Notes under the pieces: model-generated
What the model was told of the DNA's origin: nothing
Seen by the model: the letters and a program-made list of their open reading frames with translations, nothing else
The model's database searches: none
Shown: in pieces, positions 10,008 to 12,517 of the stretch
Position numbering within the stretch: the first letter of the stretch is position 1
Layout: every line of letters begins with the position of its first letter
Made by a program: the position numbers and the translations under genes
Assembly: GCF_002706745.1 (NCBI RefSeq)
Contig: NZ_CP017702.1
Location: 1,116,001 to 1,180,000, forward strand
Direction of reading: 5' to 3'
DNA length: 64,000 nt
Source: Companilactobacillus farciminis KCTC 3681 = DSM 20184
GTDB taxonomy: Bacteria > Bacillota > Bacilli > Lactobacillales > Lactobacillaceae

Positions 10008-10035
10008 TTGACAATTATTAAAAGAATGTTAAAGT
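10008..10035 (+). promoter_or_regulatory. Promoter of the serC-serA leader
   Basis: -35 TTGACA (10008-10013), 16-bp spacer, and -10 TAAAGT (10030-10035) preceded by an extended TGT. Transcription would start near 10042, giving a very short untranslated stretch before the leader-peptide ribosome binding site GGAGG (10051-10055). Confidence 0.65.
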
Positions 10036-10064
10036 TTATTTAAGTTAATTGGAGGTTCTTTAAT

Positions 10065-10130
10065 ATGAAAAATATCAAAAATACATTAAACCTTACAGTC
10101 TCCTCCAAGTCTACACGTATATACATGTAG
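10065..10130 (+). CDS. Serine-rich leader peptide of the serCA attenuator (21 aa)
   Basis: A 21-codon open frame with ATG at 10065 and TAG at 10128, preceded by GGAGG at 10051-10055 with 9-nt spacing. The peptide reads MKNIKNTLNL-TVSSKSTRIYM. Three of four codons at 10101-10112 are serine (TCC TCC AAG TCT), and all three would be read by a tRNA-Ser with a GGA anticodon. It lies upstream of serine biosynthesis genes, and its last codons form one arm of an RNA hairpin. This is the layout of an attenuator leader peptide. It is too short for ordinary gene finders. Translation is inferred, not shown. Confidence 0.75.
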   Translation: MKNIKNTLNLTVSSKSTRIYM

Positions 10131-10235
10131 GCTTATTAACTAAACCTCATGTATGAAGCCAAATTCATAACTGTGAGGTTAATAAATTAAACCAACTAGT
10201 TTCCTCACAGAGATTTTATCTGTGGGGATTTTTTT
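10089..10235 (+). promoter_or_regulatory. Candidate ribosome-mediated serine attenuator of serC-serA
   Basis: Four competing pairings can be drawn. P1: 10121-10131 (end of the leader peptide) with 10145-10154, 10 bp with one bulge. P2: 10143-10157 with 10164-10180 (AACCTCA/TGAGGTT plus TATGAA/TTCATA). P3, antiterminator: CTGTGAGG (10171-10178) with CCTCACAG (10203-10210). P4: the terminator at 10202-10228. A ribosome stalled at the Ser codons leaves P1 free, so P3 forms and serCA is read. A ribosome reaching the stop codon blocks P1, so P2 and then P4 form. AACCTTACAG (10089-10098) can also pair with 10171-10180, which could give termination when the leader is not translated. No T-box sequence was seen. 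Confidence 0.7.
10202..10235 (+). terminator. Terminator hairpin of the serCA attenuator
   Basis: TCCTCACAGA (10202-10211) pairs with TCTGTGGGGA (10219-10228) with one G-U pair and a 7-nt loop, then seven T residues (10229-10235). It sits between the leader peptide and serC, 27 bp before the serC start. Confidence 0.85.
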
Positions 10236-10262
10236 ATCTAATTTTTTAAAGGAGTGGAATTC

Positions 10263-11348
10263 ATGGTAGTTTATAATTTTTCAGCCGGACCAGCTGTTTT
10301 GCCAACCGAGGTCATTAAAAGAATTAAGGAAGATTTGCCATCCTTTGATAATTCAGGGATGAGCGTGATGGAAATATCTCATCGTTCAAATCTATTTGAT
10401 GAAGTTATCGACCAAGCACAACAAGATTTAAAAGAACTGTTGCAAGTGCCAGATGATTATCACGTACTGTTCTTCCAAGGAGGTTGTACATTGCAGTTTA
10501 CGGCAGCTCCTTTGAATCTAGCAACTGAACATAAAAAAATTGCTCTGTTAGATAGTGGTCATTGGGCTGATCGTGCAAGGGATGAAGCTAGTCGTTTAGG
10601 TATTGAAGTGGATGTCATAGATTCAACGAAGAATCTTCACTACACTCAGTTGCCAGCGTTAAAAGACTTGCCACAAGACACTTACGATTACTTGCACATT
10701 ACAACTAATAATACGATTGAAGGAACAGCCTATAATCGTTTGCCAAAGACAGGGAATACTCCGTTGGTAGCTGACTTGTCGTCCAATTTCTTAGCACAAG
10801 ATTATGATTTTTCTAAATTCGATTTGATGATGGTGGGAGCTCAAAAGAATGTTGGTATTGCTGGATTAACTATCGTCGTAGTCAAAGATGATCTGATCGG
10901 TAAGGCGAAGAATCTTCCTAGCATGATCGATTATGAACTATTTGCCAAAAAGAATTCGATGTTCAACACGCCACCTGTTTTTGCAATTTATGTAGCTGGA
11001 TTAGTTTTGAAATGGGTCAAAGAACAAGGTGGAGTTAAGGAAATGGATCGTCGTAATCGTAAAAAGTCTGATTTATTGTACGACTTCTTAGACGATTCTA
11101 AATTATTTACAGCACCAGTCATGAAACAAGACCGTTCCTTAACGAATGTGCCTTTTGTGACGGGCAAGCCAGAATTAGATCAAGAATTGATTCAACAAGC
11201 TAGTGAAGTCGGTTTATTGAATATTAAAGGCCATCGTTCAGTTGGCGGAATGCGAGCTAGTTTGTACAATGCAATGCCTTATATTGGAGTCGAAAAACTA
11301 GTTGACTTCTTAAATAAATTTGAAAAAGATTACTGGGGGAAACACTAA
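10263..11348 (+). CDS. serC: Phosphoserine aminotransferase
   Basis: 361 aa PLP enzyme that converts 3-phosphohydroxypyruvate and glutamate to phosphoserine, step two of serine synthesis. The N-terminal YNFSAGPAVLP is the family hallmark, and the PLP lysine is K195 in VGAQKNVGIAGL. HRSVGGMRASLYNA near the C-terminus is also typical. ATG 10263 is preferred over GTG 10254, since AAAGGAGTGG lies at 10248-10257. It is controlled by the upstream attenuator and overlaps serA by one base. No phosphoserine phosphatase gene (serB) is in the window. Confidence 0.96.
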   Translation: MVVYNFSAGPAVLPTEVIKRIKEDLPSFDNSGMSVMEISHRSNLFDEVIDQAQQDLKELLQVPDDYHVLFFQGGCTLQFTAAPLNLATEHKKIALLDSGHWADRARDEASRLGIEVDVIDSTKNLHYTQLPALKDLPQDTYDYLHITTNNTIEGTAYNRLPKTGNTPLVADLSSNFLAQDYDFSKFDLMMVGAQKNVGIAGLTIVVVKDDLIGKAKNLPSMIDYELFAKKNSMFNTPPVFAIYVAGLVLKWVKEQGGVKEMDRRNRKKSDLLYDFLDDSKLFTAPVMKQDRSLTNVPFVTGKPELDQELIQQASEVGLLNIKGHRSVGGMRASLYNAMPYIGVEKLVDFLNKFEKDYWGKH

Positions 11349-12517
11349 TGTATGATGTAAAAACTTTTAATGCGATTGCCCAAAGCGGCTTAGATACTTT
11401 TAGAAATGATTTTGAAATTAATAAGACTGATGATCCAGATGCTTATTTGATTAGATCAGTTAATTTGTTGGAAGCTGATTTTCCACAGAGCCTAAAGACG
11501 ATTGTTAGAGCTGGTGCCGGTGTTAACAATATTCCGTTAGACCGCGTGACTGAAAAGGGAATTGCAGTTTTTAATACTCCCGGTAGTAATGCTAATGCCG
11601 TTAAAGAATTGATAGTTGCTCTAATGATTGCTACGAAGAGAAATCTCTTTGAGGCACACCAATATTCAGATGAACATACAGAAGCCGATGTTTCTCAACG
11701 AACTGAAAAAGACAAAACTAAATTCAATGGTACAGAATTAGCTGGTAAAAAAATTGCAGTAATTGGGTTAGGCCACGTTGGTTCTCTAGTTGCCAATGCT
11801 GCGTTAGGATTAGGGATGAAAGTAATTGGTTATGATCCTTATTTATCAGCTAATGCTGCTTGGAGAATCAACAATAAAGTTAAACGAGTTGATACAATTA
11901 AAAAAGCCGTTAAGAGTGCCGACTTTGTAACTATTCACGTGCCTAAGAATGAAGAGACAATTGGTTTGATCAGTACTCCAGAAATCAATGAAATGAAAGA
12001 TGGGGCAGTTTTGTTCAACTATTCTAGAGTTGGTATCGTCGATAATAAGGCTGCTGTTAAAGCTATTCGTAATCAAAAAATCAATCATTACTGTACCGAC
12101 TTTGGTGAACCGATCATTGCTGACAATCCAAAGATTACCATCACTCCACATATCGGTGGTTCAACTTTAGAAGCTGAATCAAATGGAGCTATTCAAGGTG
12201 CTAATACCGTTATGGATTATTTGCAAAATGGCGATACGACTAATTGTGTCAATTTGCCAAATATGCAGGTAGCATTTGAAACAGCTTTTCGAATTACCGT
12301 AATTCACCAAAATGTTCCTAACATGGTTGGACAGATCAGTACGCAACTAGCTAATCGTCAAATCAATATTGAAAATATGGCTAATGCGGCTAAAGATAAA
12401 GTGGCTTATACGATCGTTGACGTGAACGATTTGAATCAAGATGATGCTGAAGATTTGATTCACCATTTGAATTCTATTCCTGAAGTTTATCGTGTTCGTC
12501 TGATAAAACATCAATAA
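11348..12517 (+). CDS. serA: D-3-phosphoglycerate dehydrogenase
   Basis: 389 aa, first enzyme of serine synthesis, oxidising 3-phosphoglycerate with NAD. The NAD-binding motif GLGHVGS is near residues 140-146. The catalytic Arg (FNYSRVGIVD), Glu (TDFGEP) and His (ITPHIGGST) are all in place. An ACT domain from about residue 315 (FRITVIHQNVPNMVGQIS) suggests feedback control, probably by serine. It is shorter than the ~525-aa Bacillus form because it lacks the intervening domain. Order serC-serA with a one-base overlap implies coupled translation. Confidence 0.93.
   Translation: MYDVKTFNAIAQSGLDTFRNDFEINKTDDPDAYLIRSVNLLEADFPQSLKTIVRAGAGVNNIPLDRVTEKGIAVFNTPGSNANAVKELIVALMIATKRNLFEAHQYSDEHTEADVSQRTEKDKTKFNGTELAGKKIAVIGLGHVGSLVANAALGLGMKVIGYDPYLSANAAWRINNKVKRVDTIKKAVKSADFVTIHVPKNEETIGLISTPEINEMKDGAVLFNYSRVGIVDNKAAVKAIRNQKINHYCTDFGEPIIADNPKITITPHIGGSTLEAESNGAIQGANTVMDYLQNGDTTNCVNLPNMQVAFETAFRITVIHQNVPNMVGQISTQLANRQINIENMANAAKDKVAYTIVDVNDLNQDDAEDLIHHLNSIPEVYRVRLIKHQ

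Follow-up and report, generated by a model that had tools for sequence, protein, structure and literature searches.

The serC-serA locus and its leader region

The window, a 64,000-nucleotide stretch of DNA from Companilactobacillus farciminis, belongs to a genome of one contig (2.55 Mb) and carries serC and serA on its forward strand, with the start of serA overlapping the stop codon of serC by one base. The serC protein is 94% identical to that of Companilactobacillus formosensis and 92% identical to that of C. futsaii. The features of the locus are listed below; proportions of paired cells and of pairs changed on both sides refer to the alignment of 44 leaders described later.

10008..10035, + strand: promoter with -35 element TTGACA (10008-10013), 16-nt spacer, and -10 element TAAAGT (10030-10035), with TG ahead of the -10 element
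10043..10055, + strand: 5' arm of outer stem P1; 10043-10049 is complementary to 10135-10141, and the Shine-Dalgarno region 10049-10055 to the leader's own Ser codons at 10102-10108
10051-10055, + strand: leader peptide Shine-Dalgarno sequence GGAGG, inside the P1 5' arm
10065..10130, + strand: leader peptide frame of 21 codons, ATG 10065 to TAG 10130, predicted product MKNIKNTLNLTVSSKSTRIYM
10101..10112, + strand: putative regulatory codons TCC TCC AAG TCT (Ser Ser Lys Ser), a Ser cluster present in 14 genera with synonymous change
10109..10132, + strand: hairpin P2 (segments A:B), 10109-10115 with 10126-10132; 96.0% of cells paired, both-side change in 3 of 8 pairs
10120..10155, + strand: helix C (segments B:C), proposed to form when the ribosome is stalled at Ser, 10120-10127 with 10148-10155
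10143..10180, + strand: helix D (segments C:D, anti-antiterminator), 10143-10151 with 10172-10180; 93.7% of cells paired, both-side change in 7 of 9 pairs
10171..10210, + strand: helix E (segments D:E, antiterminator), 10171-10178 with 10203-10210; 95.7% of cells paired, both-side change in 6 of 8 pairs
10202..10235, + strand: intrinsic terminator (segments E:F), 10202-10211 with 10219-10228, followed by seven T (10229-10235); 96.8% of cells paired, both-side change in 8 of 10 pairs
10250-10254, + strand: serC Shine-Dalgarno sequence AGGAG
10263..11348, + strand: serC, phosphoserine aminotransferase (NCBIfam NF003764 and TIGR01364 above cut-off; Pfam PF00266)
11348..12517, + strand: serA, phosphoglycerate dehydrogenase (TIGR01327 at 7.5e-75, below the cut-off of that family; PF02826 and PF00389)

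The promoter, ribosome site, 21-codon frame, Ser codons, competing stems, and terminator that an initial annotation of this DNA had described ahead of serC-serA were all recovered in place. The four pairings that it proposed also exist, although the first fits better as 10120-10127 with 10148-10155. Both the promoter and the terminator upstream of serC were also chosen by a simple scan (4 promoter-like sites versus 1.7 expected, and 1 terminator versus 0.2 expected), and a TTGAC...TGTTA block was discernible in the Companilactobacillus alignment rows that reach the promoter, the row for locus L012 ending short there. Folding of 10032-10240 gave a z score of -4.1 and that of 10118-10240 a z score of -4.35, with 0 of 200 dinucleotide shuffles being as good in either case. 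The 25 nucleotides at 10224-10248, which include the 3' arm of the terminator and the T run, are identical to the stretch directly after a T-box match (G000:C1:723012-723236).

Distribution of the leader and its serine codons

A search of the genus yielded matches in 28 of 36 Companilactobacillus genomes, that of the window included, of which 27 were serC and the remaining one was a remote aminotransferase-like sequence (1e-6). A leader frame with a Ser cluster was present ahead of all 27 serC loci, at a distance of no more than 300 nt in 25 of them. The leaders of L018 and L020 lie about 500 and 390 nt upstream of serC, respectively, beyond an extra stretch with repeated GTTTGG-containing units that separates leader and gene in these two genomes (also L255 and L256). 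Some Companilactobacillus leader frames extend to a later stop codon (24 residues).

At a threshold of 1e-60, serC was found in 129 of 301 genomes of the family, representing 21 genera. Upstream DNA was taken for 104 of the 119 matches outside Companilactobacillus, with 15 being left out, and a Ser-cluster leader frame followed by a terminator was present at 60 of these 104 loci (57 identified by script, and L104, L121, and L091 by inspection, the L091 leader being about 720 nt upstream of serC). The leader is present in 14 of the 21 serC-bearing genera, Companilactobacillus counted. It was sparse in g22 (1 of 8 loci) and g16 (2 of 5), and no such leader was found in the loci taken from seven genera (g2, 0/5; g3, 0/6; g9, 0/1; g30, 0/13; g33, 0/7; g36, 0/1; g39, 0/1). 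Absence was scored by a script that scanned about 480 nt upstream and needed a ribosome site, with 8 of the 44 absences also being checked by eye. In 295 genomes of the order, a covariance model matched 12 at 1e-3, and the four matches outside Lactobacillaceae were weak (1e-4 to 7e-4) and without a serC leader. At L177, L181, L182, L188, L191, and L192, serC has a tRNA gene no more than about 560 bp away. The fold scans described below were performed with 83 leaders that have defined ends; L018, L020, L091, L104, and L121 were counted as present and lie outside this set.

The motifs in the leader peptides include SSKST, SSLST, SSSWST, SSSRST, VSSWSSSL, VSSSRSSR, ASSSTQS, and FSSSPVG. The residue between the Ser codons varies (K, L, W, or R) while the serines persist; isolated exceptions occur, for example SFSWS in L113. 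Serine accounts for 21% of leader residues, compared with 5.5% in the long frames of the window. When the six-codon stretch richest in Ser was taken from every one of the 83 leaders, the 304 cluster Ser codons comprised 152 UCC, 71 UCU, 56 UCA, 19 AGC, and 6 AGU. UCC is the rarest Ser codon in the long window frames (5.7%) and yet makes up half of the cluster codons, a choice that may partly serve pairing, since UCCUCC complements the leader GGAGG. Of 42 leaders scored, 41 had a start codon, chosen by its ribosome site, that shares the frame of the Ser codons and lies 10 to 13 codons from them; L122 alone had an out-of-frame start, 2 of 44 leaders yielded no start, and for L096 and L158 the script picked a start upstream of the likely one. 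Two hallmarks of an attenuator are present in the leader: a predicted short translatable frame with a ribosome site upstream of the terminator, and a cluster of codons for the amino acid made by the operon. The downstream gene serC makes phosphoserine, a product that fits the Ser cluster.

Competing folds and the predicted ribosome switch

The alignment (A1) comprised 44 leaders of common architecture from 7 genera, drawn from the 83 with defined ends; 25 leaders of g38, g5, g12, g6, g16, g22, and g26, in which the downstream fold differs, and 14 near duplicates were left out. The off structure, consisting of P2, helix D, and the terminator, was paired in 95.5% of cells in A1, and 18 of its 27 pairs had changed on both sides, compared with 10.4 in shuffles and a level that 0 of 500 shuffles reached. 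When the partners were slid by 1 to 3 columns, only 31-52% of cells were paired. Helix E uses arms of both helix D and the terminator, and its both-side change was equalled in one shuffle out of 500. Eight pairs are counted, a ninth, which formed in 7 of 44 leaders, having been dropped after the first test. For helix C, at least 6 bp were formed with the leader's own complement in 39 of 44 leaders, compared with 619 of 1460 cross-genus combinations and 8.5% of shuffled ones. These values were obtained with a longer search stretch than that used in a first test, which had been shortened by gaps (35 of 44; cross-genus, 0.30). The arms of helix C substitute for one another among leaders, as in ATACATG/CATGTAT, ATCCATG/CATGGAT, and CATCTGTG/CACAGATG.

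As in an attenuator, terminator and antiterminator are mutually exclusive, and covariation supports both states across the 44 aligned leaders (7 genera). Such conservation of two alternative states together is more than a plain terminator needs. The initial annotation had interpreted the region as a serine attenuator and suggested a comparison with related species, to see whether the Ser codons are retained and the pairings show compensation; the Ser clusters of 14 genera and the compensatory changes in the 7 aligned genera both support that interpretation. The outer stem P1 is only weakly supported as a feature of the family, given that pairing with the leader's own partner (48 of 78) was close to the cross-genus (0.42) and shuffled (0.43) values; long examples are those of L035, L101, and L129.

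Because termination prevailed at nearly all ribosome positions at full equilibrium with the finished terminator, the choice between the two states must be kinetic and made during transcription. Full-equilibrium folding was dropped as uninformative with regard to the switch, and partial transcripts were folded instead. In the E scan, the folded transcript extended as far as the 5' arm of the terminator; the ribosome was moved along codon by codon, and all RNA upstream of its front was masked. For the window leader, the probability of the terminator arm being held upstream was 0.23 for the unmasked RNA, 0.72-0.83 when the S, S, K, or S codon occupied the A site, and 0.06-0.17 when the stop codon did. 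With a footprint of +12, the value at Ser exceeded that at the frame end by >0.2 in 45 of 83 leaders, and the reverse was apparent in none; the genus-averaged Ser excess was 0.191, compared with -0.009 +/- 0.031 at shifted positions (0 of 5000 permutations). Similar numbers were obtained with footprints of +9 (41 leaders) and +15 (39 leaders), again with no reverse case. The remaining 38 of 83 leaders did not show a Ser-end difference of >0.2, with averages of 0.00 for g23, 0.12 for g13, and 0.09 for g38. The value at Ser exceeded that at the codons preceding the cluster by >0.2 in only 26 of 83 leaders and that of the unmasked RNA in only 21 of 83, with no reverse case; termination as the default without translation is therefore not general.

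In the D scan, which corresponds to one step earlier in transcription, the Ser codons were compared with the last reachable codon. Helix D was lower at Ser in 23 of 44 leaders, with no reverse case (1 of 5000 permutations). The window leader manifested the switch in the E scan only, helix D remaining formed at its Ser codons in the D scan. One or other scan favoured readthrough at Ser over the frame end in 35 of 44 leaders, and neither favoured the contrary; nine leaders (L009, L010, L011, L016, L021, L027, L114, L127, and L153) were positive in neither. In silico, the position of the ribosome at the regulatory codons selects the fold in 35 of 44 leaders when the two scans are combined and in 45 of 83 in the E scan of the larger set. 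Folding with a masked ribosome, akin to the constrained folding proposed in the initial annotation, thus yielded the switch expected at the Ser codons for the majority of leaders, though not for every one.

In the his leader, pairing of A:B, C:D, and E:F corresponds to the off state, and pairing of B:C and D:E to the on state. Comparative and modelling data together make it very probable that the serCA leader is a ribosome-mediated, serine-specific transcription attenuator of this layout. RNA synthesis would start near 10042, and a ribosome would translate the 21-codon peptide. With an ample supply of charged tRNA-Ser, the ribosome would pass the Ser codons and reach the stop codon at 10130, covering segment B (10120-10132), so that C:D would pair (10143-10151 with 10172-10180), the terminator (10202-10235) would form, transcription would end near 10235, and serCA would be off. 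With charged tRNA-Ser, the likely signal, in short supply, the ribosome would stall at 10101-10112 and open P2; B:C would then pair (10120-10127 with 10148-10155) and release D, which would in turn capture the 5' arm of the terminator (10171-10178 with 10203-10210) and allow readthrough into serCA. For the window species, folding suggests that the untranslated RNA would form P1 and P2, conceal the ribosome site of the peptide, and terminate by default.

We considered three other explanations. That UCCUCC is kept to mask the peptide's own ribosome site, with the element sensing general translation or initiation rather than serine, appears highly unlikely. Complementarity of this GGAGG/CCUCC type is common, with a score of at least 12 between the Shine-Dalgarno region and the Ser codons in 68 of 78 leaders with their own partner (cross-genus, 0.77; shuffled, 0.40), and the Shine-Dalgarno sequence of the window is paired in the minimum-energy fold. 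Serines are nevertheless retained where UCCUCC has been lost (TCA TCA TCA CGG TCA in L129; TCC TCA TGG TCT TCA TCC in L139; TCC TCA TCA CGG TCT in L130 and L159), additional Ser codons lie outside the motif, and the fold switch, where seen, falls at Ser codons.

Still less probable is a serine T-box, or another riboswitch binding tRNA or a metabolite, with the peptide frame being accidental. Serine genes are under the control of T-boxes in other Bacillota, according to the accessible part of one study (PMC8002221), and the genome with the window has 25 T-box matches at an E value of 1e-3, 7 of them over the cut-off. The serCA leader is not among these 25, however, and the T-box family (RF00230) had no match in the window leader or in 10 other leader loci, consistent with the initial annotation, which had proposed a ribosome-driven attenuator where a T-box would be usual. 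Nor was a T-box detected at 20 leaderless serC loci. No Rfam family attained its gathering score in the window leader, the best being the trpB motif (28.1 versus 59 bits), and at the 10 other leader loci the sole RNAs to do so were tRNA genes in the neighbourhood. A riboswitch would, moreover, leave the frame, the Ser codons, and the rare-codon bias unexplained. With regard to catalogued RNAs in general, only tRNA genes attained the gathering score in the window, the 20 leaderless loci, and the 10 leader loci; the best score for His_leader (RF00514) was 33.9 bits versus a gathering score of 49, at L136 only, with none listed in the window.

Least credible is a plain intergenic terminator without regulated readthrough, with serCA read from elsewhere and the small frame due to chance: the terminator is indeed strong at equilibrium, but a terminator-like hairpin lies ahead of serC in all 83 loci, a set picked for the presence of the peptide, with L181 and L183 having the weakest hairpins, and the 44 aligned leaders have the mutually exclusive, covarying antiterminator.

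Other candidate leader peptides and relation to known systems

A covariance model of the serCA element, such as that which we built and of which many of the tested leaders are part, can be used to find further members. The model matched 99 of 301 family genomes at an E value of 0.1. All 58 matches below 1e-8 precede serC, many of them by construction, and the possibility that the element has been copied before other genes was rejected on this basis. The next match (1.2e-8, in genome G102) precedes trpX, and eight loci with weaker matches that we opened contained short frames of other composition. Such weak matches probably expose further leader peptides, of aromatic, Val, Leu, and Trp types.

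A short leader with a single Trp (..RWQS..) precedes trpX, a tryptophan ABC transporter gene, at L245 and, by resemblance, at L246, both in genus g35. Frames containing FYYYW and followed by a terminator-like hairpin precede the genes for shikimate dehydrogenase (L249) and DAHP synthase (L252, by profile) as well as DAHP-synthase-like frames (L273 and L275, by resemblance). The aromatic-rich frames of these four loci, MLTTHGKVNSFYYYWFMK and MIKINSKINRFYYYWY followed by A or V, are candidate Phe/Tyr/Trp attenuators, though their fold scan was flat. The FYYYW leaders MRTWPRPKQNRFYYYWFLQ and MRKSTAKSQLRFYYYWFIQ of L277 and L278 precede a gene for transketolase (by resemblance for L277 and by profile for L278), an enzyme that supplies erythrose 4-phosphate to the synthesis of aromatic compounds. 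Frames of the YYFW type (RYYFWF, QYYFWY, and NYYFGY) at L247, L248, and L289 precede the gene for a PTS_EIIC_2 membrane protein (by resemblance for L289), which is perhaps a transporter of aromatic compounds. Finally, L250 has the leader MLLRTNSEFNITEQVVVVVSVLD (VVVVV; about 290-530) before an amino acid permease gene, and L251 the Leu-rich leader MNRYITVVNNNQLLDLHLFLLIIKSV with a terminator before the gene for an LDH-like dehydrogenase. For the shikimate, DAHP, transketolase, and trpX candidates, the gene suits the amino acid featured in the peptide.

Among 12 non-serine leaders subjected to the fold scan, a clear switch was obtained for L250, coming on at the valines and going off once the stop codon was reached, and for L247, at YYFW. 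The result was partial for L246 and L251, a fall occurred only near the stop codon for L245, the scan was flat for L248, L249, L252, L273, L275, and L278, and it was contrary for L277. A search with an aromatic pattern found 40 places in 36 of 121 genomes; a reversed control pattern was commoner (about 55), so that the count is itself no evidence. Of 20 such loci opened, 4 had a leader-like frame with a large downstream frame, 1 had a short frame without one, and 15 lacked a start codon with a ribosome site. The FYYYW leaders of L273, L275, L277, and L278 came from this pattern search. We consider it rather likely that, alongside their T-boxes, Lactobacillaceae use a whole set of ribosome-mediated leader-peptide attenuators throughout the lineage, the serine element being one among several, with our confidence having been lowered by the control pattern being no rarer and by the contrary result for L277. 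These further candidates suggest that short frames ahead of lactobacillar amino acid genes may be overlooked regulators.

The serCA leader resembles the his operon leader of enterics (RF00514) and the trp/thr/ilv type in having a peptide rich in codons for the product. Its P2, helix D, and terminator, as opposed to helices C and E, reproduce the layout of the his leader, and in both an intrinsic terminator precedes the first gene. It differs from the enteric leader in that the amino acid is serine rather than histidine, the operon is another, the host is a low-GC member of Lactobacillaceae, and it is not a member of RF00514.

The initial annotation had regarded a ribosome-driven attenuator as unusual for low-GC Gram-positive bacteria, a view that needs to be tempered, given that such leader peptides have been published for His in bacilli and Leu in Staphylococcus aureus and that Lactobacillaceae seem to have more. 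The accessible part of PMC5794164 proposes a Leu-rich attenuator peptide for S. aureus ilv-leu on the basis of mutants and expression. That system is likewise one of ribosome-dependent control of an amino acid operon in a low-GC Gram-positive organism with T-boxes elsewhere, whereas it concerns Leu rather than Ser and other genes in another family; the case for serCA is a purely comparative one, based on a frame present in 14 genera and covariation in 7. As far as the accessible part of PMC2965389 describes, a predicted His leader peptide lies ahead of hisS/hisZ paralogues in bacilli, which is alike in that a predicted leader peptide replaces a T-box in Bacillota and different in that hisS-family genes are concerned there and a biosynthetic operon here. 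The words serine, serC, and serA occur zero times in the main text of that paper.

No leader-peptide attenuator for serine or from lactobacilli was found in the literature searched, which was open-access only, so that absence there is no proof, and the initial annotation had likewise known of no described example for serCA. The kind of attenuation is known; its use for serine, for the serCA operon, and in this lineage seems not to have been described in the open literature that was searched. The leader would extend sensing by the translating ribosome to serine, with a his-type switch (frame in 14 genera, covariation in 7) operating within a family that also uses T-boxes. T-boxes bind tRNA directly, whereas the proposed sensor in the serCA leader is the translating ribosome. 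The serine T-box leaders of Bacillota, in the accessible part of PMC8002221, are alike in serving serine biosynthesis and presumably in responding to the same signal, the charging of tRNA-Ser. One and the same pathway would then be under the control of a T-box in some Bacillota and of a leader peptide in others.
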